Shown here: positions 15,692 through 64,000 of the stretch, one piece after another
Numbering within the stretch: the stretch's first letter is position 1
Layout of the letters: each line of letters begins with the position of its first letter
Source: Candidatus Peregrinibacteria bacterium
Lineage (GTDB): Bacteria; Patescibacteriota; Gracilibacteria; UBA1369
Length of the DNA stretch: 64,000 nucleotides
Direction: 5' to 3'
NCBI GenBank assembly: GCA_020851415.1
Contig: JADZCU010000050.1
Span: 50,475 to 114,474 of the forward strand
The notes under the pieces: model-generated
Seen by the model: only the letters and a program-made list of their open reading frames with translations
The model's database searches: none
Told to the model about the DNA's origin: nothing
Position numbers and translations under genes: made by a program

Positions 15692-18031
15692 ATGGCTCGT
15701 AAACGTCGAACATCTTCCCGTAAAAAATCGACCAGGAAAGTTACCCTGGATTTGAAGTCTTCCGTAATGCGTGAAATATGGGCGGTTACGTATTTTGCCT
15801 TTGGTGTTTGTACATATTTGAGTATTAATAACGGGTTTGGATTGGTTGGCGAAGTCCTAATGGGCTTTTTGCGTCCTGTTTTAGGATGGGGCGTGAATAT
15901 TTTGCCGATCCTCTTTATTGGTGCGGCGGTGGCGTTGCTGTTTTCCAAGAAAGTTGTTTTTCCGGCATCCCGAATTATTGGTATTAATTTTCTTTTGGTT
16001 TCGGGGTTAAGTATTTTGCATCTTTCGGTGCCGATGGATGCTTTGTATAGTGAAGCTCAAAATGGTCATTATGGCGGATACATTGGTTTTGTAATGAATT
16101 TTTTGTTCCGTGAGCTTTTGAATGTCGGTCATTTGGGTGCGAGTGCCATTTATTTTACGATACTGGTTATTGGCACGCTTCTGACTTTTGAGATTTCACT
16201 CCGACAGGTAATGGCGTTTATGAAACCTGATATTAAGATTGTTCGAAAAAAAGTTGCCCGTGGACGTGTTGAAGAACAGGAGGTTGAGGAAGAGGAACGT
16301 GAGGAACAGACTGAGGAGGCAGAAAATATTTTGGATGAAGAGGAGGAAGGAGAGATTTCTGAAGAGGATTTTGAACGGGAAAGAAATAAAGCCCGCCAAA
16401 GTGACGCTGATCTTGAAGTTTTGACTATCAAGCGTCCAGAGATTCAAGTTGCCGCTGAGAAAACCAAGGAAAGAAAAATTAAGATTATTGAAGAGGATGA
16501 ACAGCCTGTTCAGGCTTTGGAGTCTGATGGCGAAACGTATGTTTGGTCGCCGCCTTCCCTGGATTTACTTGATCCACCGGTGGGTGATATTGCCCAGGAT
16601 GATGCGCTTTTGAAAGATAATGCTAAAAAGATCCGCGATAAATTACATCAGTTTGGTATTGATGTGGAGATGCATGAGGTTCATGTGGGGCCGACGGTTA
16701 TTCAATATACTTTGCGTCCGCATGAAGGAATTAAGCTTTCTAAAATCACCGGTTTGAAGAGTGATTTAGCCTTGGCTCTCGCGGCTAAAGCGATTCGTAT
16801 TGAGGCGCCGATTCCGGGTAAATCTTTGGTTGGTATTGAGGTTCCCAACGATCATCGTTCGATTGTTCATCTTCGGGAACTTTTGGAGAGCAAAGAGTTT
16901 AGTGAAATTAAATCGAATTTGCGTTTGCCGTTAGGTCGTGATGTGGCGGGAAAACCTGTTTGCGGAGATTTGGCTTCAATGCCACATTTGCTGGTTGCAG
17001 GTGCAACCGGTTCAGGCAAATCTGTTGGTATGAACAGCTTTTTGCTTTCAATGGTTTATCAAAATTCACCGGCTGATTTGCGCTTTATCATGATTGATCC
17101 AAAGCGTGTTGAGTTGAATACTTATAATGGGATTCCTCATTTACTCACTCCTGTTATTACTGATCCTGGAAAGGCTGCAATTGCTCTTCGTTGGGCTGTT
17201 GCTGAGATGAATCGTCGTTATCAGTTGTGTGCAGAGACGGGGCACAGAAACATTCAGGAGTTTAATGCCTGGGCAATGGAAGAAAAAGCACGCATTGAGG
17301 CTGAGATGGCAGAAAAAGCTAATACAGAGGTTGCGGAGGGTGAGGAAGTAGCACCTCCTCCAAAAATTCACCAAAAAATGCCAAACATCGTAATTGTTAT
17401 AGATGAGTTGGCGGATTTGATGATGGCTGCCGGTAAAGAGGTGGAAGCTTCCATTTGTCGTATTGCTCAAATGGCACGTGCGGTGGGCATGCACTTAATT
17501 GTGGCTACGCAGCGTCCATCTGTGGATGTTATTACCGGTTTGATTAAGGCGAATGTTCCAACACGTATCGCTTTTGCCGTGAGCTCCGGCATTGATTCTC
17601 GTACTATTTTGGATGGATCTGGAGCAGAGGATTTACTTGGTAAGGGTGATATGTTGTATTTGCCTGGCGGTATGAGCAGACCTCTTCGTATTCAGGGTAT
17701 TTATGTGTCTTCTAAGGAAATTGAGCGCGTTACCCTTAATATTAAGATTCAGGCTCCAGCCAACTATGTTGATGAGATTATTTCCCAAAAGGTAGCTCAA
17801 CAGAAGGTGCAGGGGATTCCGGAGAGTGACTTGGGTGAAGTTGATGATGATGGTTTATATCAACAGGCGATTGAGGTTATAGCTGAAAGCCGCAAGGCTT
17901 CAGCATCACTTTTGCAGAGAAGATTGAAGGTTGGGTATGCACGTGCCGCTCGAATGCTTGATTTGATGGAAGAAAACGGCCTGATTGGACCGGTGAACGG
18001 TGCCAAGGCGAGGGAGATTTATATAGACTGA
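15692..18031 (+). CDS. ftsK: DNA translocase FtsK/SpoIIIE
   Basis: N-terminal TM region, acidic linker, HLLVAGATGSGKSVGMNSFL Walker A, IVIVIDELADLMM Walker B, C-terminal winged-helix gamma-like region. Confidence 0.95.
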   Translation: MARKRRTSSRKKSTRKVTLDLKSSVMREIWAVTYFAFGVCTYLSINNGFGLVGEVLMGFLRPVLGWGVNILPILFIGAAVALLFSKKVVFPASRIIGINFLLVSGLSILHLSVPMDALYSEAQNGHYGGYIGFVMNFLFRELLNVGHLGASAIYFTILVIGTLLTFEISLRQVMAFMKPDIKIVRKKVARGRVEEQEVEEEEREEQTEEAENILDEEEEGEISEEDFERERNKARQSDADLEVLTIKRPEIQVAAEKTKERKIKIIEEDEQPVQALESDGETYVWSPPSLDLLDPPVGDIAQDDALLKDNAKKIRDKLHQFGIDVEMHEVHVGPTVIQYTLRPHEGIKLSKITGLKSDLALALAAKAIRIEAPIPGKSLVGIEVPNDHRSIVHLRELLESKEFSEIKSNLRLPLGRDVAGKPVCGDLASMPHLLVAGATGSGKSVGMNSFLLSMVYQNSPADLRFIMIDPKRVELNTYNGIPHLLTPVITDPGKAAIALRWAVAEMNRRYQLCAETGHRNIQEFNAWAMEEKARIEAEMAEKANTEVAEGEEVAPPPKIHQKMPNIVIVIDELADLMMAAGKEVEASICRIAQMARAVGMHLIVATQRPSVDVITGLIKANVPTRIAFAVSSGIDSRTILDGSGAEDLLGKGDMLYLPGGMSRPLRIQGIYVSSKEIERVTLNIKIQAPANYVDEIISQKVAQQKVQGIPESDLGEVDDDGLYQQAIEVIAESRKASASLLQRRLKVGYARAARMLDLMEENGLIGPVNGAKAREIYID

Positions 18032-18043
18032 TACCTTGTTGAT

Positions 18044-18069
18044 AAACCGCCCTGAAAAGCGGTTTTTTT
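18044..18069 (+). terminator. Rho-independent terminator of ftsK
   Basis: AAACCGC-N8-GCGGTTT followed by a T run. Confidence 0.85.
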
Positions 18070-18188
18070 GGCTTGTGTTCATGTTTTTTCTGTTTGTGTT
18101 TAGGGTATAGTTTTGACGTTTGTGCAACATATTTTCCGTGCAAACTGTAATGTTTTCCGTATAGTTGGGTACTAATAAATTAGGTGGT

Positions 18189-18239
18189 GTCAAAAAGTGT
18201 TGACTACTGCAGTTGACATTATGGTACATATATTATAAT
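18189..18239 (+). promoter_or_regulatory. Promoter/regulatory region of the lipoprotein array
   Basis: TTGACA (18213-18218), 15-nt spacer, TATAAT (18234-18239); overlapping GTCAA-N6-TTGAC inverted repeat (18189-18204). Confidence 0.55.
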
Positions 18240-18270
18240 ATACTTCCCCTAAATATTAATAATTATAATT

Positions 18271-19119
18271 ATGTCGTTAGATAACTTTAAATCATCTGTG
18301 GTTAGACCATCAAGTTCTAAGAGCAGAAAATTGGCTGCTGCATTGGGACTTATTTTGGGAAGTACTGCAGTGTCAGTTAGTGAAATGGGTTGTGGATTGG
18401 ATGTTCAAGGAACGGCAGATATTACTGGTGCAGGCGGTGAAGGTGGTACGGGTAACGAAGGCGGTACTGATGCCGGTGTGAATTCTGACGCAATTTTCCC
18501 GGTAGAAGATGCAAATATGGATACAGGAGATTTCCCGGATGCCAAAGAAGATGCGGATGCTGGCACTATGGACGCTGATACTAAGGATGCCGAAGCCGGC
18601 ATGGATGCAAGTAGTGATGCAGACGCGGATGTTATGGATGCTGATGCGGGACTTGATGCAAGTGCCGACGCAGATGCAGATGTTACGGATGCGGCTATAG
18701 ATGCCGATGCCGGTTGTGTTGATATTCCGGTTACTTTTAAAAATATGACTGAATATGTTTTGCGTGTTTACAGCGGTAGCTGTAGTCCAGCGGCTGTGAC
18801 ATATTCATCCTTGGGTAGTTTTACCGGTGCAGAGACAACTCTTTGTTTAAAGACTGGTGATATTGCTCTTTTACAGGTGCATGACGGTGCGGATGGTAAT
18901 GCTGTTGAGTTTGATACGACTGGTTTGCCTTTAGCTGTTAAGAAAGTTTCATTTGGTGTTACTACACCAATTAGTGAAGCTGAAGCGAATGCCTATTGTC
19001 CAGACTCTGCTGGTTGGTCAACTTTGAATGTTGCTTCGGATGATGTAAATCCGGCTGCGAACTCGTACAAATATCTGGGTGGATCTCCTAAATCAAATGG
19101 TTACAAAATTGTATTTTAA
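18271..19119 (+). CDS. Array member 1: putative surface lipoprotein, Asp/Ala-rich linker + conserved 4-Cys domain
   Basis: Hydrophobic N-term LAAALGLILGSTAVSVSEMGC; DADA-type repeats; C-terminal CVDIPVTF...TTPISEAEANAYC homologous to the next three ORFs. Confidence 0.8.
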   Translation: MSLDNFKSSVVRPSSSKSRKLAAALGLILGSTAVSVSEMGCGLDVQGTADITGAGGEGGTGNEGGTDAGVNSDAIFPVEDANMDTGDFPDAKEDADAGTMDADTKDAEAGMDASSDADADVMDADAGLDASADADADVTDAAIDADAGCVDIPVTFKNMTEYVLRVYSGSCSPAAVTYSSLGSFTGAETTLCLKTGDIALLQVHDGADGNAVEFDTTGLPLAVKKVSFGVTTPISEAEANAYCPDSAGWSTLNVASDDVNPAANSYKYLGGSPKSNGYKIVF

Positions 19120-19131
19120 TTATCATTTTGT

Positions 19132-19929
19132 ATGAATATTCAGAAAACAGATTCATTGTGTCCTGAAACGTCAGATTTACATCTTGGAACGGCGGCTGAT
19201 CAAGTTTGTGCTGAATCCATTCACGCGGGAACACCGGCAGCGTGTTCAAAAAGTATTTCTGCGAAGGCATTGATGGCAGCGGGTCTTTTTGCTTTAGGCC
19301 AGGCAAGCTGTTTACTGGATTCTACTGGATCATGTCCTGAGCCTTGTAATGCGCAGGGTGGGACTGGTGGAACAAATGTTAGCAGTTCCTCGTCTGGCGG
19401 TAATGGTGGTTCAGAGAATGTTGGTGGTATGGGCGGAAGCACCAGTTCAAGTAGTGGTGGAACAGGTGGTATGAATGAAGGTGGCGCAGGAGGCATGGGC
19501 GGAACAAGTGGTACTGGAGGTGGCAATTGTATGGATATTCCTGTAACTATAGAAGACACAACGGGTGAATATGAGGTGAAGCAGTATGACGCAAGTTGTG
19601 TTCCGGATGGCGTTAATACTTTAGGTGGTGGTTTTGAGACTGGTACTACAGATCTTTGTGTTAAAGTCGGTGGAGGATTCCTTGTTCAGATAAAGAACGC
19701 AGCAGATATGAATTCTTTGAAATTTATATCTCCTGATGTCCCATCAAAAGTGGAAGTTTATCAGTTGGGCGTTAGCACACCTATAAGCGACAGCGAGGCT
19801 GATGCTTATTGCTCAACGAATGGTCCAACACTTGATCCGGTTTCTGCAGATCAGGATCCTACGCTTGCGGGTTTTGAATATACTCCGTCATCTGTAGGAC
19901 CTACGAATATTGTACATGTTTCTTATTAA
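19132..19929 (+). CDS. Array member 2: putative surface lipoprotein, Gly/Ser-rich linker + 4-Cys domain
   Basis: CMDIPVTIEDTTGEYEVKQYDASC...DLCVKVGGGFLVQIKNAAD...STPISDSEADAYC. Confidence 0.8.
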   Translation: MNIQKTDSLCPETSDLHLGTAADQVCAESIHAGTPAACSKSISAKALMAAGLFALGQASCLLDSTGSCPEPCNAQGGTGGTNVSSSSSGGNGGSENVGGMGGSTSSSSGGTGGMNEGGAGGMGGTSGTGGGNCMDIPVTIEDTTGEYEVKQYDASCVPDGVNTLGGGFETGTTDLCVKVGGGFLVQIKNAADMNSLKFISPDVPSKVEVYQLGVSTPISDSEADAYCSTNGPTLDPVSADQDPTLAGFEYTPSSVGPTNIVHVSY

Positions 19930-19934
19930 TATTT

Positions 19935-20687
19935 ATGGATAAACTTTCTATTCCTCACTTAGAGGCAAAAGTTCTTAAGTCACGTTTTGCTAAAAATATT
20001 GGAGTTGCTGCTTTGTTGGCAATTACTACAACGACGGCTGCGGCTGCTTTGGGCTGCTCCGGTGAAGAGTTTACTTCCGGCGATGGATCGGGTGGCGCAG
20101 CAGGATCAGAAAATGCGGGGGGCAAAAGCGGTGCCTCCGGTACTGGTGGCAAAGAGAATGTAGGTGGTTCAGGTGGTATGGCTGGAAAAGAGAATGCGGG
20201 AGGCCAGGGCGGCGTTTCCGGTATCGGTGGTAAACTGAACACTGGCGGTGACGCCGGATTTGGAGGTGGCGGAGCAGCTGGCTGTTTAGATGTTTCTGTG
20301 AAAATTAAAAGTACTACCGGTCAATATGAGGTCAAACAATATGATCAGGATTGCGCCGTTGATGGCGTGAATACCCTTGATAGTTCTTTTGAAACTGGTG
20401 AGCAGGATTTATGTGTTAAACCGGGTGGTGGTTTTGTTGTTCAGATAAAAAATGCAGCGAATAAGAATGCGATTGAGTTTTTTGCTTCAGAAAAGCCTGT
20501 TACGGTTCGTTCAGTTGGTTTTGGAGTTACTACTCCTATCAGCAATGCTGAAGCCGATGCTTATTGTAATTCATCCACAGGTGATAGCTTGAATCCTACG
20601 ACTGCGGATAAAGATCCTGCGGCAGATAATTATAAATACGTTCCTGTTACTCAAACTCAGACGAACGGTTTTATAGTGAAATACTAA
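19935..20687 (+). CDS. Array member 3: putative surface lipoprotein, Gly-rich linker + 4-Cys domain
   Basis: Lipobox-like AALGC; CLDVSVKIKSTTGQYEVKQYDQDC...DLCVKPGGGFVVQIKNAAN...TTPISNAEADAYC. Confidence 0.8.
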   Translation: MDKLSIPHLEAKVLKSRFAKNIGVAALLAITTTTAAAALGCSGEEFTSGDGSGGAAGSENAGGKSGASGTGGKENVGGSGGMAGKENAGGQGGVSGIGGKLNTGGDAGFGGGGAAGCLDVSVKIKSTTGQYEVKQYDQDCAVDGVNTLDSSFETGEQDLCVKPGGGFVVQIKNAANKNAIEFFASEKPVTVRSVGFGVTTPISNAEADAYCNSSTGDSLNPTTADKDPAADNYKYVPVTQTQTNGFIVKY

Positions 20688-20725
20688 TTAAGTTATATCT
20701 TACTTTTCATAAATTTTTTTCTTAT

Positions 20726-21634
20726 ATGTTAGAAGTAGAACCAAACTTGCAACGTGTCGAACAGCAACCAGATGTTTCGACTCCACATGAAAGAGTCACC
20801 GTTCAGACGGGGCCAGTTAATGGTGTTATGGGATCTGTGCGCTCATCAATTGCAAAACGTGCTTTTCTTATGGCTTTTTTGGCTACTACAGGAGCTACGG
20901 CATCTGTAGGAGTGTCTTCGGGGTGTCTTCAGGATTTTGAAAAATTTCGTGCACAAGGTGGTGGTGCGGCAGGTGGATCTGTCAGCAGTGTTGGTGGTAG
21001 CGGAGGTAAAATGGAAAATGTGGGTGGATCCGGCGCGAGCACTAGTTCAAATGGTGGTGTTGGAGGTATGGAGAACGTAGGAGGTTCCGGTGCGAGTACC
21101 AGCTCAAATGGCGGCTTTGGAGGAGTTGGTGGAATGGAAAACGTAGGGGGCTCCGGTAGTTCAACAGGTGGTTCTGGAGGAGTTGGCGGCATGAATGAAG
21201 GCGGTGCCGGAGGTAATGGTGGTGGCTGTGCGGATATTCCTGTGATTGTTGGAGATGCCAATGGTGGAGAATATGATGTGAAGCAATACGATGCAGGTTG
21301 TGCGCCAAATGGAGTCAACACGCTTGCAGATAATGTTTTTGAGACTGTGCCGGGTATGGTTTGTGTAAAAAATAATGGAAGTTTAATTGTTCAGACTCAT
21401 GATGCTGCAACGATGAATTCACTGGTAATCGATTCGCCGGTTACACCTTCTAAAGTTGAATTTTTTCAACTGGGTGTTGCGGCCCCAATTAGTGATGCTG
21501 AAGCCGATGCTTATTGCACAACAAACGGTACAATGGTGGATCCTACAACTGGAGATCAGGACCCAGCTGCTACGGGCTTTGAGTATGAACCGGGTTCAGT
21601 TGGCCAGTCTAATCTTTGGAAGATTACATTTTAG
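20726..21634 (+). CDS. Array member 4: putative surface lipoprotein, repeated Gly-rich linker + 4-Cys domain
   Basis: VSSGC lipobox-like; CADIPVIVGDANGGEYDVKQYDAGC...MVCVKNNGSLIVQTHDAAT...AAPISDAEADAYC. Confidence 0.8.
   Translation: MLEVEPNLQRVEQQPDVSTPHERVTVQTGPVNGVMGSVRSSIAKRAFLMAFLATTGATASVGVSSGCLQDFEKFRAQGGGAAGGSVSSVGGSGGKMENVGGSGASTSSNGGVGGMENVGGSGASTSSNGGFGGVGGMENVGGSGSSTGGSGGVGGMNEGGAGGNGGGCADIPVIVGDANGGEYDVKQYDAGCAPNGVNTLADNVFETVPGMVCVKNNGSLIVQTHDAATMNSLVIDSPVTPSKVEFFQLGVAAPISDAEADAYCTTNGTMVDPTTGDQDPAATGFEYEPGSVGQSNLWKITF
21000..21210 (+). repeat. In-frame GGMENVGGSGxSTxSNGG-type repeats (three main copies)
   Basis: Protein repeat GG(K)MENVGGSGASTSSNGGVGGMENVGGSGASTSSNGGFGGVGGMENVGGSGSSTGGSGG; DNA copies differ at many synonymous positions. 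Confidence 0.8.
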
Positions 21635-21686: not shown

Positions 21687-22679
21687 ATGCAGTCGATTTT
21701 GGTTACCGGCGGTGCTGGTTATATTGGTTCGCATGCGGTGAAGGCCTTGGCTGATGCAGGTTATAAGGTTACGGTTGTTGATAATCTTTCCAAAGGGCAT
21801 GCGGCGGCTGTTGATAAGCGTGCAAGCTTTCTTCAAATGGATTTGAAAGATGCCCAGGCTTTAAAGGATCTTTTTGTTCACGAGCATTTTGATGGAGTGC
21901 TCCATTTTGCCGGCGCGATTGAAGTAGGACTTTCGATGAAAGAACCTGCGATGTTTTTTGAAAGTAATGTGGTGAACGGAGTGAACTTGTTAGAAGCTAT
22001 GAGAGCGGGAAACACAAAGAATATTATTTTTTCTTCGACCGCGGCTGTTTATGGTGAACCGGTTTCAATTCCGATTAAGGAAACCGATCCGTTGAAGCCT
22101 ACGAATTTTTATGGATTATCAAAGTTAATGTTTGAACAGCTGCTGGAAAAATACCGAGAGCTGTATGGTATCAATTATGTTGCGCTCAGGTATTTTAATG
22201 CTTCTGGTGCCGATCCGTCCGGTGAGATTGGTCAGGATTATATTCCTGATACGCACCTTGTTCCGCGCTTGGTGAAGGCAGTTTTGGGGATTTACGATAA
22301 GTTGTCGGTTTTTGGAACGGACTATCCGACAAAAGATGGTACCTGCGTTCGTGATTATATTCATGTGACCGACCTTGTGGACGCCCATTTGCTGGCTTTG
22401 AATTTCCTTTTTGAAAAGGGGCAAAGTGAGGTTTTCAATTTGGGTAATGGTAACGGCTTTTCGGTTTGGGAAGTGATTCAAACGGCGGAGAAAGTTATAG
22501 AGAAGAAAATACCGTATGAAATAACTTTGCGTCGCGCTGGAGATCCTGCTGTCCTGGTTGCTGATTCACAAAAAGCAAAAACACTGCTTGGGTGGACCCC
22601 AAAACATTCCGGCCTCGAAGAGATTATTGGAACTGCCTGGAAGTGGCACTCCACGCACCTTCAGGGGTATGGGGACTAA
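21687..22679 (+). CDS. galE: UDP-glucose 4-epimerase
   Basis: ILVTGGAGYIGSHAVKAL, SSTAAVYGEP, YGLSKLMFE, LRYFNASGADPSGEIGQ, CVRDYIHVTDL. Confidence 0.95.
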   Translation: MQSILVTGGAGYIGSHAVKALADAGYKVTVVDNLSKGHAAAVDKRASFLQMDLKDAQALKDLFVHEHFDGVLHFAGAIEVGLSMKEPAMFFESNVVNGVNLLEAMRAGNTKNIIFSSTAAVYGEPVSIPIKETDPLKPTNFYGLSKLMFEQLLEKYRELYGINYVALRYFNASGADPSGEIGQDYIPDTHLVPRLVKAVLGIYDKLSVFGTDYPTKDGTCVRDYIHVTDLVDAHLLALNFLFEKGQSEVFNLGNGNGFSVWEVIQTAEKVIEKKIPYEITLRRAGDPAVLVADSQKAKTLLGWTPKHSGLEEIIGTAWKWHSTHLQGYGD

Positions 22680-48822: not shown

Positions 48823-50301
48823 TTAGGAAACCCGGCGTAAGTAGTCCTTATAGTTGGGGTTTTCCATGATTTTATCGACAAGTTTTCTGTTTGTGAGGCT
48901 TGGAGCCGTGAGTTTTGCCGGATCGAGAATCTTATCGAGATCTTTTTCACTCATGAAATTTTGGTAGATGAGTTCTTCTTTTAGGGTTTTTCCTTTGTTG
49001 AGAGCCTCTTTTACCAGTTGTGCAGTTACCTTGTAGCCAAGGTAAGGGGAGAGACCTGTGGCAAGACAGAGACTTTCATCCAGGAACTGCTTACAACGGT
49101 CAGCGTTGGCCTGGATGCCGTCTATACAGAGTGTGCGGAACATTTTTGAACCGTTCGTGAGAAGATCTAATGACCACATAAGGTTATGCATGATCATTGG
49201 AGTCATGACGTTTAACTCCAGCTGGCTGGATTGAACTCCGTAATTGATGGCGGTGTCGTTTCCTATAACCTGGTATCCAATCATATTGAGGCATTCTGGG
49301 ACGGATGGGTTTACTTTGCCAGGCATGATTGAGGATCCCGGTTCGACTTCGGGAATGAGGATTTCTGATATGGCACCCATTGGTCCGGAAACCAGGAGTT
49401 TGAGATCGTTGGCTATACGAATGAAATCGTTTGCCAGTACCCTTAGGCTGTTGGAGGCTATGGCGAATGCATTCATGCTGTGAGTCAGCTCCATTGGGTA
49501 TTTTGTGGCGCTTAGTTTAATGCCGGTAATTTTGCTTAGATTTTTGACCATGAGCGGGCGGAATTTTGGATGTGTGGTGATGCCTGTCCCGAGCGCTGTA
49601 CCGCCAATACCCAGTTCCGTGAGATGATCAAAAGATTCCGCTATGTACATGTTGCAGCGTCTGATGGCTGAACCATAAGCTTCGAACTCCTGGCCCAAAC
49701 GAATTGGAACCGCATCCTGAATATGTGTGCGCCCGACTTTAATGATTTTGTGAAAATCTTTAGCTTTTTTATTGAAAGATTTTTCCAGTTTTTCCAATTC
49801 TTCGTGGAGACTTTCTACGCGATAAAGTGCAGCAAGTCTGATTGCCGTTGGTATAACGTCGTTTGAGGATTGTCCCCAGTTGACGTGATTGTTGGGTGTT
49901 ACTGGTTTGTAACTTCCTTTTATTCCGCTGATCTCTTTTTCTTTTTTTGCGAGAATTTCATTGGCGCGATTGGCGATAATTTCGTTGGCGTTCATGTTGA
50001 AGGGAGTGCCTGCGCCGGCCTGGAAAACATCTAAAATAAATTCATTGTCGAATTTACCATCAATAAATTCCTCTGCGGCTTTTATGATGGCTTTGGCATC
50101 TCTTTTATCTAACTCGCCGAGTTCTAGATTTGTTATAGCTGCAGCCTTCTTTATGATACCGAGAGCTTTTTTGAAGGCTTGTGGCGCCGCAATTCCACTG
50201 ATTTGAAAATTTTGCTGTGCGCGCGCCGTGAAAGAACCCGCGTAGGCATCTTCTGGTACTTTGACCTCACCGATGACATCGCGTTCAATGCGAAATTTCA
50301 T
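48823..50301 (-). CDS. Aspartase/fumarase superfamily enzyme (aspartate ammonia-lyase or class II fumarase)
   Basis: NNHVNWGQSSNDVIPTA, GGTALGTGITTHPKF, EPGSSIMPGKVNPSVPECLNMIGYQVIGND. Confidence 0.85.
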   Translation of the reverse strand: MKFRIERDVIGEVKVPEDAYAGSFTARAQQNFQISGIAAPQAFKKALGIIKKAAAITNLELGELDKRDAKAIIKAAEEFIDGKFDNEFILDVFQAGAGTPFNMNANEIIANRANEILAKKEKEISGIKGSYKPVTPNNHVNWGQSSNDVIPTAIRLAALYRVESLHEELEKLEKSFNKKAKDFHKIIKVGRTHIQDAVPIRLGQEFEAYGSAIRRCNMYIAESFDHLTELGIGGTALGTGITTHPKFRPLMVKNLSKITGIKLSATKYPMELTHSMNAFAIASNSLRVLANDFIRIANDLKLLVSGPMGAISEILIPEVEPGSSIMPGKVNPSVPECLNMIGYQVIGNDTAINYGVQSSQLELNVMTPMIMHNLMWSLDLLTNGSKMFRTLCIDGIQANADRCKQFLDESLCLATGLSPYLGYKVTAQLVKEALNKGKTLKEELIYQNFMSEKDLDKILDPAKLTAPSLTNRKLVDKIMENPNYKDYLRRVS

Positions 50302-55637: not shown

Positions 55638-57434
55638 TTAGCCGAAGGTAAAGGCAAAAGCTTCAACGCCCGAGTCCGAAAATTCTAAAGTGAGGGTGTG
55701 ACGTTCGTATTGGTCTTTGGTATCTACCAAACTGTAGAGCTTCGCGTCTTTGATAGTAACGGTTCCGTCCGCAGCCACATCAGCTCCGCGTATGCCAGGG
55801 GCGATGAGTTTCCCGTCCAGTAGGACTCTGGCTTTCAGTGTTTTCCCGTTACCGTTCATGACTAGATTTGCCTGGCTTGCTTTGTAATTTATGATGATTT
55901 TGCCGTTTTTTGCACTTAATTTGGCACTATCAGGTCCAACAATCCACTTCCCAACCAGATAAAACATATCTGTTTCGATTTGGGCGGGCTCTTTGAAGGT
56001 TTGTTCTTTATCAGCGATAATGGCCTCTTTGTTACCTTGAGCTTCTTCACGTTCGTAACCTATGTACGTTTCACGGGTTTCGATTTTTCTGAAATCGACA
56101 TTGTCCGCCTGGACACTCGAAGATTTTTCTTCAGGCATGGTTGATGAAGCTTTTCCTTCCGCCAAAAGTTGGCGGATAACTTTTTCTGTTTCTTCATACT
56201 GACCTTCGCCAAAGTGGGTGTAACGAATGAAGCCGTTTTTGTCGATAATGTATTTTGCTGGCCAATAATGGTTGTCGTAGGCGAGCCATGTCTTAAACTC
56301 ATTATCCTGAACAACAGGATATTCTATGCCATAATCTTTTATCGCTTTTTTGACATTATTCAGGTCTTTTTCAAATGGAAATTCCGGCGTGTGTACACCG
56401 ATAATTACGAGCCCTTCATCTTTATATGTTTTGTGCCAAGTGCTGATATAGGGGAGTGTGCGGATGCAGTTGATGCAGCTATAGGTCCAGAAATCTATTA
56501 TTACTACTTTTCCTTTTAAGTCGCTGAGTTTAAGCGGTTCAGAATTCACCCAGCCCTGGTTACCGGTGAGTTCCGGCGCTTTTTGGGTCGGTTCTAATAG
56601 GGGTATGTTGCCTGCTTCTGAAGATACGTTTGTTTGAGCAGGGGAGTTTTGTTCTGCGGATTTTTGTGATCCAAGCTCTCCGCTGGTTTGTTGCAAAAGT
56701 TTTTCTTCAAATTTTGTAAATTGGGGGAAAACACTGTAGAGGGCAGTTTGGATTTTTACGTCCAGGCCAAGAGCAATAAAGGCTACTCCCACCAATAAAA
56801 CGATGCCGGATAATTTTTTTATTTGTTCACCACGTTGTTTGAGAAACTTGAGTTTGTTTATAACCAGATTTCCGCCGTAGGCGATGGTAAGCATTGGTAT
56901 GCCGGCGCCCAGAGAGTAAAAAAGCATGAGAAGTACGGTTTTTCCAAGATCTGCCTGAGTAACCGCGAGGGTAAGGATTGCGCCTAAAATTGGACCTGCG
57001 CAAGGTACCCAAACAAGACCAAGTGAAGCTCCTACTAAAAATCCATCCATAACACCTTTTTCTTTTAGTGTTTCACCTGAAGATTTTATTGCCGGATCTT
57101 TTGTGGGAAGCAGTTTTTTTGCAAACTGTTGAAGTTCAAAAATAACTTTTTCAAAAACACCCGGGAAAATAAGAGCCAGACCGAAGATTGCCAAAAATAG
57201 TAACGCAACTGTTCGAAGTGTTTCGCTGGATATGCCAAACAAGTTGGTTACATAAGTAAAAAGAATGCCAAATCCGGTGAAACTTAACGTAAGTCCCACA
57301 ACTATTGCTATTGGTCTGAATTTACTTTGGTGGCCAATAGTGGATCCCAAAATAATAGGAAGTACCGCAAGAATACAGGGGGCGGCAATAGTTAAAAAAC
57401 CTCCAATGAAAGCGATAAATAGAAGTGAAAGCAT
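55638..57434 (-). CDS. DipZ-like fusion: CcdA/DsbD membrane domain + TlpA-type thioredoxin + C-terminal beta-sandwich
   Basis: FLTIAAPCILAVLPIILG, VPCAGPILGAILTLA, DFWTYSCINCIRTLPYISTWHKTYKDEGLVIIGVHTPEFPFEKD, ETYIGYERE. Confidence 0.87.
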   Translation of the reverse strand: MLSLLFIAFIGGFLTIAAPCILAVLPIILGSTIGHQSKFRPIAIVVGLTLSFTGFGILFTYVTNLFGISSETLRTVALLFLAIFGLALIFPGVFEKVIFELQQFAKKLLPTKDPAIKSSGETLKEKGVMDGFLVGASLGLVWVPCAGPILGAILTLAVTQADLGKTVLLMLFYSLGAGIPMLTIAYGGNLVINKLKFLKQRGEQIKKLSGIVLLVGVAFIALGLDVKIQTALYSVFPQFTKFEEKLLQQTSGELGSQKSAEQNSPAQTNVSSEAGNIPLLEPTQKAPELTGNQGWVNSEPLKLSDLKGKVVIIDFWTYSCINCIRTLPYISTWHKTYKDEGLVIIGVHTPEFPFEKDLNNVKKAIKDYGIEYPVVQDNEFKTWLAYDNHYWPAKYIIDKNGFIRYTHFGEGQYEETEKVIRQLLAEGKASSTMPEEKSSSVQADNVDFRKIETRETYIGYEREEAQGNKEAIIADKEQTFKEPAQIETDMFYLVGKWIVGPDSAKLSAKNGKIIINYKASQANLVMNGNGKTLKARVLLDGKLIAPGIRGADVAADGTVTIKDAKLYSLVDTKDQYERHTLTLEFSDSGVEAFAFTFG

Positions 57435-58128: not shown

Positions 58129-58875
58129 TTACTTTTTTCGTTTAGTCAGCAAAGCTTTTGTTACATGGAGTACACCCATTGTTTTTAGACGTTGCAGGGC
58201 GATTGCCGGATCAACTTTTTTAGGGCAAACTACCGAACATTCACCAATAAAACTGCATTGCCATACGCCGTTTTTTTGAGTGAGGGAGTCCATGCGTTCG
58301 TTCGGTATTTCGTCGTGACTGTCTTCCAAGTAGCGATAGGCGAGTGCGGCCGCCGCGGGGCCGATGAAGTTTGGATTGTGGCCGACTACCGGACATGCCG
58401 AATAACAGAGCATACACTTAATGCACTGACTGGATTGTTCGATTTTTTTTCTTTGTTCGGGTGTTTGGATCATCTCTTTGTCGAGCGATGCGTGGCGGTT
58501 GATTATATCTGTATAAGGCATTGCTGTGCGAAAATGCTCCATGGCGTTATCTGTATCTACGATCAGATCTTTTATCACCGGAAAGTTTCGTAATGGTTCA
58601 ACCGTGATTGAGCCTTTGTCGGTTTCGCAAAATGTTTGGCACATAAGAGCCGGTTTTCCGTTGATGATTGTTCCACAACTTCCGCAGATACCCATGCGGC
58701 ATGACCATCTGTGTGCAAGCGTTGAGTCTTGCGTATCTTTAATGTGATTCACTGCATCCAGAACAGTCATTCCTTTTTTCTCCGGTATTTCGAACTCCTC
58801 AAGGTGTGACTTTTGAGTTTCCGGATTATAGCGCCTGATTTTTAGTGAGACCTTTTTTGCCATTGGCTCTAACAT
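58129..58875 (-). CDS. frdB: Fumarate reductase/succinate dehydrogenase iron-sulfur subunit
   Basis: CRMGICGSCGTIINGKPALMC, CIKCMLCYSACPVV, CSFIGECSVVCPKKVDP: three Fe-S cluster motifs. Confidence 0.92.
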   Translation of the reverse strand: MLEPMAKKVSLKIRRYNPETQKSHLEEFEIPEKKGMTVLDAVNHIKDTQDSTLAHRWSCRMGICGSCGTIINGKPALMCQTFCETDKGSITVEPLRNFPVIKDLIVDTDNAMEHFRTAMPYTDIINRHASLDKEMIQTPEQRKKIEQSSQCIKCMLCYSACPVVGHNPNFIGPAAAALAYRYLEDSHDEIPNERMDSLTQKNGVWQCSFIGECSVVCPKKVDPAIALQRLKTMGVLHVTKALLTKRKK

Positions 58876-58893
58876 TATTTAATTTTCGAAATT

Positions 58894-60600
58894 CTAGTAT
58901 TTGCGGACTTCAGGCTGCCAGCGGGTGATTGTTACGGGTGCATTGGTTAAACTCATGGCATTATCTTTTTTTGTTACCACGTGATGTATCATGAAATTTT
59001 TATCATCACGATCCGGGAAATCGCTTCGGGTGTGGCTTCCGCGGCTTTCTTTTCTTGCCATCGCGCAGCGTATGGTTGCTTCACCAAGCGTTAACATGGA
59101 TTTCAGTTCCAGGCAGTTAATCAACTCGGTGTTAAATATTTTACTTTTATCTTTGAGTTGAACGTGCTGGAGTTTTTGTTGAAGTTCCAGGAGCGTGTTC
59201 AGACCGTCTTCAAGCGCTTTTTGGTCACGATAAATTCCGGCATTCTGGTCCATGGTTTCTTCCATGGTCATGCGGATAGCCGGCACGCTTTCTGAACCTT
59301 TTTGTTCAAGTAATCTGGCGATATTTTTTTCTTCATCTTCGAGTGCGGTTTTCATCTGAGCGGTTGTTTTTGATGTCTTTTTTGAAATTTCTTGAGCAGC
59401 TTTTTCACCGGCAACTTTGCCGAAAACCAGACAATCAGTGAGTGAGTTTGAGCCAAGGCGATTGGCTCCGTTGATGCTGATACAGTTGGTTTCGCCGGCT
59501 GCGTAAAGCCCTGGAACTGAAGTTTCCATATCAAGGTTCACGTCTATTCCGCCCATGGTGTAGTGCTGAGCCGGGGTTACCGGGATAGGTTCCTTGGCAG
59601 GATCAATACCTGCGAACTCCATGGCGATTTCACGTACCAGTGGCAATTTTTCTTTAATCAATTGATCGCCCAGGTGTCTGAGATCCAGGTGTATGTAGTT
59701 GCCGTATGGGCTTTTGAATCCGCGACCGGCACGGATTTCACTCATGATGGCACGACTGATCATATCGCGCGGGCCCAGTTCCATTTTTTCTGGGAGGTAG
59801 TTTTTGAGAAATCTTTCACCATCTTTGTTGATCAAATATCCGCCTTCACCGCGGGCTGCTTCTGTTATGAGGACGCCGTTACGAGCCAGCGCAGTGGGGT
59901 GAAATTGGATAAATTCCATATCTTTGAGGGAGGCGCCGGCAACGTAAGCCAGATACATACCATCACCGGTTTTGATTCCTCCGTTGGTGGTGAAGCGATA
60001 CATGCGGCCGGCGCCCCCTGTGCAAACGATAATCGCTTTGGCGCTAAACGCATGCAGTTTTCCGGTTTTCATCTGCATGGCAATTACGCCAGTTACTCCA
60101 TGCTGGTCGGTGGTAATTTTTGTGGCGTACCATTCATCATATCTTTTGATATTTTCATGCTTCAGGGTTCTTTCGAAGAGCGTGTGAATCATGTAGAAAC
60201 CGGTTTTGTCAGCAGCGAAAATGGTGCGTTTTACCGACATTCCGCCAAAGGCGCGCACGGCTAATGTTCCATCTTTTTCGCGACTCCAAGGACAACCCCA
60301 GTGTTCCATCTGCATTATTTCTTCTTTGGCGTGCTGAACAAAATATTCGACAGCGTCCTGATCTGCCAAGAAGTCACTTCCTTTGATAGTATCGTAGGCG
60401 TGTTGATCCAGGCTGTCATAGTCTTTAATGGCTGCCGCCAATCCACCTTCAGCCGATACGGTATGACTGCGGGTTGGATATACTTTTGAAACTATCCCGA
60501 TTTTGAGGTCAGGATTTACTTCGGCGGCTGCAATTGCTGCACGCAGTCCGGCAGCACCGCCACCGATAATCAGAAGGTCATGTTGCGTGATTTCTTCCAT
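58894..60600 (-). CDS. frdA: Fumarate reductase/succinate dehydrogenase flavoprotein subunit
   Basis: LLIIGGGAAGLRAAIAA, PTRSHTVSAEGGLAAAIKD (FAD-His), HPTALARNGVLITEAARGEGG, HYTMGGIDVNLD. Confidence 0.94.
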   Translation of the reverse strand: MEEITQHDLLIIGGGAAGLRAAIAAAEVNPDLKIGIVSKVYPTRSHTVSAEGGLAAAIKDYDSLDQHAYDTIKGSDFLADQDAVEYFVQHAKEEIMQMEHWGCPWSREKDGTLAVRAFGGMSVKRTIFAADKTGFYMIHTLFERTLKHENIKRYDEWYATKITTDQHGVTGVIAMQMKTGKLHAFSAKAIIVCTGGAGRMYRFTTNGGIKTGDGMYLAYVAGASLKDMEFIQFHPTALARNGVLITEAARGEGGYLINKDGERFLKNYLPEKMELGPRDMISRAIMSEIRAGRGFKSPYGNYIHLDLRHLGDQLIKEKLPLVREIAMEFAGIDPAKEPIPVTPAQHYTMGGIDVNLDMETSVPGLYAAGETNCISINGANRLGSNSLTDCLVFGKVAGEKAAQEISKKTSKTTAQMKTALEDEEKNIARLLEQKGSESVPAIRMTMEETMDQNAGIYRDQKALEDGLNTLLELQQKLQHVQLKDKSKIFNTELINCLELKSMLTLGEATIRCAMARKESRGSHTRSDFPDRDDKNFMIHHVVTKKDNAMSLTNAPVTITRWQPEVRKY

Positions 60601-63466: not shown

Positions 63467-64000
63467 TTATACTTGTTTTTTGTTTTTCTGATGAATGGAT
63501 TTTTTGATATGCCAGAAAATCATCAGGCCGGAGATTACCATTATTACCGAAAGAAGTTGTCCCATGGTTATTCCTCCGAAGAGGAATCCAATTTGCGGGT
63601 CGGGTTCGCGGAAAAACTCGATAAAAATTCTGAATATTCCATAACAGATGAGAAAAGTCCCGGCAACAACTCCACGTTTATCAAATTTTTTCCCTACCAG
63701 TGTGACGATGATAAAAAGTACCAGGCCTTCCAGTGTTGCTTCTAAAAGCTGCGACGGATAACGGCAATTTGTTGGATCTGTAGGAAAGTAGACGCAGAAC
63801 GAATCCTGAAAATTAAGGAAAGCCGGGTGGGCACCCATATGACGATACGGTTCTGATATTTGAACAATTCTTCCGTAGAGCTCAGCGTTGATGAAGTTTC
63901 CAATTTTGGCAAAAAATAGTCCGACCGGAGCTATGCTGCAGATGATGTCTCCGATTTGCAGATACGTTTTTTTATATTTTTTTCGAAATAGCCAAACGGC
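63467..64000 (-). CDS. lgt: Prolipoprotein diacylglyceryl transferase, truncated at window end
   Basis: IGNFINAELYGRIVQ, HPAFLNFQ, YPSQLLEATLEGLVLF, GTFLICYGIFRIFIEFFREPDPQIGFLFGGITMGQLLS; open to base 64000. Confidence 0.92.
   Translation of the reverse strand, partial: AVWLFRKKYKKTYLQIGDIICSIAPVGLFFAKIGNFINAELYGRIVQISEPYRHMGAHPAFLNFQDSFCVYFPTDPTNCRYPSQLLEATLEGLVLFIIVTLVGKKFDKRGVVAGTFLICYGIFRIFIEFFREPDPQIGFLFGGITMGQLLSVIMVISGLMIFWHIKKSIHQKNKKQV

Follow-up and report, generated by a model that had tools for sequence, protein, structure and literature searches.

Tandem putative lipoproteins with a C-terminal domain of unrecognised family between ftsK and galE in a Candidatus Peregrinibacteria genome

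The question raised by this locus is what is encoded by four consecutive plus-strand ORFs between ftsK and galE in a Candidatus Peregrinibacteria (CPR) draft genome (1.42 Mb, 81 contigs, completeness 95%), and what the C-terminal domain common to their products, here called the head, may be for. The analysis started from a stretch of 64,000 nucleotides of this genome, here called the window, to which the coordinates refer unless another locus is named; genomes are designated by G-numbers, that of the window being G000.

The array, its borders and its predicted lipid anchors

The four ORFs span 18271-21634 and are separated by gaps of 12, 5 and 38 nt, as the initial annotation had given them and as the ORF listing and gap measurement bear out (Table 1). 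They had also been described as paralogues, and this agrees with a tblastn search with ORF2 against its own genome, where ORF4, ORF3 and ORF1 are recovered with E-values of 2e-53, 8e-47 and 3e-19, respectively, and no ORF2 homologue was found outside the array.

Table 1. Features of the ftsK-galE interval in the window.
Feature	Position	Strand	Description
ftsK/spoIIIE-like gene	15692..18031	+	conserved left-hand border of the locus
intrinsic-terminator-like hairpin and T run	18044..18071	+	3' of ftsK, between ftsK and the array; pattern scan, sequence
sigma-70-like promoter	18213..18241	+	5' of ORF1; TTGACA-17 nt-TAATAT, 10/12 matches; TATAAT overlapping
ORF1, 282 aa	18271..19119	+	N-tail and hydrophobic segment aa 1-40, Cys41, Asp/Ala-rich stalk 108 aa, head aa 149-282
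51-nt tandem repeat in ORF1 stalk	18571..18692	+	DNA repeat analysis
ORF1 head	18715..19116	+	alignment; AlphaFold2 model pLDDT 75, pTM 0.76
ORF2, 265 aa	19132..19929	+	N-tail and hydrophobic segment aa 1-59, Cys60, Gly-rich stalk 73 aa, head aa 133-265
ORF2 head	19528..19926	+	alignment
ORF3, 250 aa	19935..20687	+	N-tail and hydrophobic segment aa 1-40, Cys41 (canonical lipobox), Gly-rich stalk 76 aa, head aa 117-250
ORF3 head	20283..20684	+	alignment
ORF4, 302 aa	20726..21634	+	N-tail and hydrophobic segment aa 1-66, Cys67 (canonical lipobox), Gly-rich stalk 101 aa, head aa 168-302
57-nt tandem repeat in ORF4 stalk	21011..21123	+	DNA repeat analysis
ORF4 head	21227..21631	+	alignment
galE-like UDP-sugar epimerase	21687..22679	+	conserved right-hand border; 52 nt past ORF4

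The product of the ftsK-like gene has relatives at 30-65% identity that are nearly all Candidatus Peregrinibacteria, Gracilibacteria or Peribacteria records, the closest being from Peregrinibacteria, which places the host within the CPR. The name of the galE-like gene comes from the sequence and the initial annotation, not from a family scan. The terminator-like matches in the region are not above those in shuffled sequences, and the argument for the hairpin after ftsK is its position. TTGACA sites are found not only at the predicted promoter of ORF1 but also 5' of the first lipoprotein gene in three sister loci, and the pattern scan detected no terminator-like site between ORF4 and galE. As the counts of promoter and terminator sites are not clearly above shuffles, it is no more than plausible that ORF1 to ORF4 and galE form one transcription unit.

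All four predicted proteins have the same overall plan, i.e. an N-tail of about 21-47 residues and a hydrophobic segment, followed by a Cys, a stalk and the head. The Cys directly follows the hydrophobic segment in the four window proteins and in all 14 relatives described below (18 out of 18 occurrences). This residue had been called lipobox-like: its position after the hydrophobic segment stands in all four proteins, but the canonical pattern (PROSITE PS51257) fits ORF3 and ORF4 only, and not ORF1 (SEMG-C) or ORF2 (GQAS-C); overall 11 of the 18 proteins fit. LspA (PF01252) and a full Lgt (PF01790) are encoded in the window's genome, both over the cut-off. The lgt gene reported in the window is indeed present, but only as a fragment at the right edge (63512-64000, minus strand, contig end), while the full lgt (contig C45) and lspA lie elsewhere in the genome; together with further lgt pieces on contigs C41 and C76, these copies suggest that the genome holds at least two lgt genes. 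Because a Cys follows the hydrophobic segment in all cases and Lgt and LspA are encoded in the genome, lipid anchoring of the four proteins, as was originally proposed, is likely. With lipoproteins of the Lgt/LspA pathway (PS51257) they share a predicted signal peptide ending in Cys, a hydrophilic spacer and a globular domain; they differ from typical lipoproteins in the length of the N-tails and in that two of the four lipoboxes are non-canonical.

Elsewhere in the window, a 563-aa ORF (24-1715) with a TTG start, the true start being unsure, has no Pfam match at E <= 0.001. The minus strand encodes, according to Pfam, flavoprotein and iron-sulfur subunits of succinate dehydrogenase/fumarate reductase and a fumarase-type lyase (58132-60600 and 48826-50301). 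TCA and respiratory genes are generally scarce in CPR genomes.

The head domain and its remote relatives

The head comprises 133-135 residues (~134 aa) at the C-terminus of each window protein. The alignment confirms what had been read from the sequence, namely a common C-terminal domain with four aligned Cys and F or Y as the last residue in four out of four proteins, and it contains a conserved PIS..EA.AYC segment. The domain had not been recognised at that stage, and it is still not recognised by wider searches: the head has no match in Pfam, NCBIfam, PHROGs or PDB sequences. The AlphaFold2 model of the window head (built from window sequences only; scores in Table 1) predicts six main strands, a helix and three strands. 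The model of a G009 head (six-row alignment; pLDDT 67, pTM 0.63) has the identical order at matching positions plus one short strand, and is not independent of the former since its alignment includes the window heads. With Foldseek neither model matches the PDB at E <= 0.001, and the window model has no match in BFVD either; the best E-value is 0.14, and carbohydrate-binding and lectin folds appear in the output at noise level only. A lectin or adhesin fold is thus not demonstrated.

A profile of the eight heads from ftsK-galE loci found further heads, outside that alignment, in G009, G010, G011 and G007. An iterative HMM seeded with two G009 heads alone gathers 13 sister heads and does not reach the window heads, so that the two groups are linked by profile-profile comparison, together with synteny, architecture and the order of the predicted strands. 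In hhalign, the window profile aligns with the 13 sister heads over the full length with an E-value of 0.0038 (one comparison) and a score of 23.1, whereas 200 column shuffles reach 20.0 at most. Adding the G005 head to the window set brings the score to 32.5, with a shuffle maximum of 21.2. The probabilities given by hhalign itself are modest, 9% for the window set alone and 60% with G005 added. Compared by itself with one group or the other, the G005 head scores no higher than shuffles, and the comparison of the window heads with the two G009 heads alone is not significant. The ORF1 head is 12-20% identical to the sister heads. An earlier reading, in which the head at the sister locus was unrelated, was given up after the 13 sister heads had been collected. 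Taking synteny, architecture and strand order into account as well, it is our judgement that the window heads are very probably, if remotely, homologous to the sister heads. A weak match in G168 disappeared with a better profile, and this genome was discarded as a head carrier.

The proposal that the four Cys form two disulfides is not borne out by the larger set. In the 18-head alignment the Cys of the window heads are at columns 2, 26, 47 and 126, the core pattern of the sister heads is 16, 47 and 101 plus 160, 161 or 166, and no conserved Cys pattern was found between the two groups. Of these columns, 47 is the widely shared one; at head position 44, 17 of the 18 heads have a Cys. The Cys at column 2, which comes first in the window heads, is otherwise present in G005 and four G009 heads only. 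A search of the window's genome detected no VKOR and no DsbB, which is weak evidence because the genome is 95% complete. Within the GTDB family of the window, VKOR is found in 10 of 13 genomes, being absent from that of the window and from G009, and DsbB is found in G009 only. A fusion of a DsbD-like membrane domain, AhpC/TSA and a thioredoxin-like domain (55641-57434, minus strand; Pfam) is possibly an extracytoplasmic disulfide-handling protein, and disulfides in the window heads are possible.

A single position, a Tyr, is common to all 18 heads; Cys, Pro, Phe, Tyr and Gly occupy the near-invariant positions, and none of the residues conserved in all 18 heads is of a catalytic type. These residues bear on the idea that the head is a surface-tethered enzyme or inhibitor, e.g. 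a hydrolase or a protease inhibitor. It is general knowledge that compact Cys-containing beta domains can be inhibitors, which speaks for the idea, but a conserved catalytic constellation is missing from the 18 heads and the head has no family match, and we consider such a function very improbable.

Interchangeable stalks and a conserved locus

The stalks of the window proteins are low-complexity segments of 73-108 residues in which about 80% of the residues are G, A, S, T, D, N or E. Three are Gly-rich and that of ORF1 is Asp/Ala-rich with a net charge of -29, i.e. the stalk type differs among paralogues with homologous heads. Other stalks are found in sister genomes. In G010 the head is at the end of a 1091-aa protein (L067:7533-10808) of STIG1 repeats (PF04885), with eight STIG1-type stretches, 168 Cys and a VKOR gene a few kb away, and in G011 and G009 it is at the end of proteins with MopE motifs (PF11617). 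In these genomes the Cys-rich STIG1 and Cu-binding_MopE repeats take the place of the stalk between lipobox and head, whereas the four window proteins have no such repeats and the head belongs to neither family. Since the same head is carried on Gly-rich, Asp/Ala-rich, STIG1 and MopE stalks, the head is, as judged from the sequences, the conserved functional part of these proteins.

GG-linker matches in G003 and G007 were rejected as relatives, as the similarity is confined to the stalk and the C-termini differ. The G007 proteins (L050:11064-12998 and L052:3-737) have GGAGG linkers and other C-terminal domains, and their C-terminal hydrophobic segment, with basic residues behind it, resembles a sorting or MYXO-CTERM-type tail. 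The G003 protein (L051:6547-7218) is lipoprotein-like, with an NVGG/NEGG stalk and a different Cys-containing C-terminus, and its gene adjoins a VKOR gene.

Inspection of sister genomes shows that the ftsK-galE neighbourhood is a conserved site of head-bearing proteins in four genera: four are encoded here, two in L017 (G009), one in G003 and one in G005, where the ends of two contigs overlap and give a view of the locus from either side. In G010 galE directly follows ftsK, and in several other genomes of the family ftsK is not followed by galE. A profile of all 18 heads matches 7 of the 359 genomes of the class, and all seven belong to the GTDB family of the window (7 of 13 genomes there, 6 being without a head); among 384 genomes drawn from the phylum, only the window's genome matched. 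The 18 copies are distributed unevenly, with four in the window's genome, five in G009, three each in G007 and G011, and one each in G003, G005 and G010. A scan of the window heads against 85,462 species genomes found no relative, but a scan of this kind, seeded with short peptide patterns, would overlook heads as remote as those of the sisters. A phage origin was rejected, as the window heads have no match in PHROGs, phage records or IMG/VR, and likewise a plasmid origin, for which a sister head gave no match.

In the head tree, sequences from one genome or genus group together; the branches are long and few of the forks are firm. This grouping agrees with lineage-specific amplification. Between the congeners G007 and G011, the three array genes have dN values of 0.009-0.037, similar to those of the neighbouring genes, and dS values of 0.17-0.36, with dN well below dS in both head and stalk. 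The array genes of this pair are under purifying selection on this short scale; diversifying selection was not seen in this, the one pair tested, and the pattern does not look like an arms race. One could also imagine the array as a variable decoy or antigen layer that escapes phage, predators or grazing through the exchange of stalks and heads between tandem paralogues. The tandem arrangement, the tandem repeats within stalks, the switching of stalk type among paralogues and the grouping of heads expected of lineage-specific amplification are all in line with such a layer. The low dN/dS of the close pair argues against it, however, as does the ORF listing, where the neighbours of the array include no conspicuous recombinase or silent cassette, and we regard this explanation as improbable.

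A possible binding function in comparison with known systems

Polysaccharide genes are found next to several sister copies. The head loci of G007 and G011 adjoin an ABC-2 (polysaccharide-type) exporter, family 2 glycosyltransferases and an SLH protein, and the head locus of G010 adjoins a polysaccharide pyruvyl transferase and VKOR; in the window it is galE that adjoins the array. Such neighbours speak for the proposed binding function, and they fit the cell's own glycan and a partner cell alike. It is conceivable that the proteins are structural lipoproteins of the envelope, whose heads bind the wall or surface polysaccharide of the cell itself and serve as a coat or tether rather than in partner recognition. 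The co-directional galE with no terminator-like site before it, the export, pyruvyl transferase and SLH genes beside sister copies and the purifying selection between congeners would suit this role; strong divergence of the heads among genera (see the identities of ORF1 to its sisters) and their absence from about half of the family would be odd for a housekeeping wall tether. We consider a purely structural role unlikely, if deserving of some weight.

On balance, and with moderate confidence, we favour the reading that the array encodes lipid-anchored surface-display proteins and that the head, a new domain family, most likely binds an envelope glycan of the own or a partner cell. According to this reading, a signal peptide whose basic N-tail is unusually long would direct export of the proteins. 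Cleavage and lipidation at the Cys that follows the hydrophobic segment would then place them on the outer face of the membrane. The flexible hydrophilic stalk would span the wall and keep the mainly beta head off the membrane, and the head would act as an adhesin- or lectin-like binding module whose ligand may be the cell's own envelope glycan or a partner cell. Binding is favoured over catalysis because no catalytic-type residues are conserved in the 18 heads and because the head is terminal on interchangeable stalks. Against binding and display we count the missing fold match, the two non-canonical lipoboxes out of four, the purifying selection in G007/G011 and the six family genomes without a head. 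What the sequences themselves show is the array, the architecture, the head family, the modularity of the stalks and the conserved locus, while lipidation and exposure at the surface are inferred. The adhesin role named in the initial annotation is likewise something that we infer, with no fold or sequence match behind a specific ligand. More speculatively, the head might be a new fold family that serves one Peregrinibacteria clade as an exchangeable partner- or glycan-recognition module, kept at a fixed ftsK-galE site in several genera and mounted on any stalk; we put this forward tentatively, as it is rather unlikely to hold in full.

The general features of the array can be compared with those of two other systems. 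Firstly, the complete Peribacteria genomes, among them that of Ca. Peribacter riflensis, were reported to code for exported Cys-rich proteins of large size, some of them in a cluster of 14 genes; a role in attachment was suggested, and the similarity of these proteins to Myxococcus Cys-rich repeats is very weak. These genomes also have multiple Lgt copies (PMC4736985). Likened by description, the Ca. Peribacter riflensis and window proteins share a Peregrinibacteria host, (predicted) export, Cys content and a gene cluster (PMC4736985), and the multiple Lgt copies are in line with the number of lgt genes suggested here (PMC4736985). However, the former average 1,655 aa with about 7% Cys (PMC4736985), while the window proteins have 250-302 aa and four Cys in the head. 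In addition, within the sampled class the head profile matched genomes of one GTDB family only. Secondly, PilX2 of the Saccharibacterium Nanosynbacter lyticus is a candidate pilus adhesin with a beta-propeller and a noncanonical signal peptide (PMC12206443). It is similar to the window proteins as a candidate for partner recognition in a CPR bacterium and in its noncanonical signal peptide, but its beta-propeller is borne on a pilus (PMC12206443), and the present analysis showed no relation to the window proteins in sequence or architecture. A description of the head family was not found in the open-licence PMC literature. As far as searched, the window proteins represent the Peribacteria theme in another Peregrinibacteria lineage; their architecture is familiar, but they are small and carry a previously undescribed head family.

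Partner recognition and binding by CPR bacteria are largely unknown, as the PilX2 report puts it (PMC12206443). A small head with 18 variants in seven genomes and a fixed address in four genera is a direct handle on this problem, since it can be made recombinantly and screened for ligands without culturing the organism.
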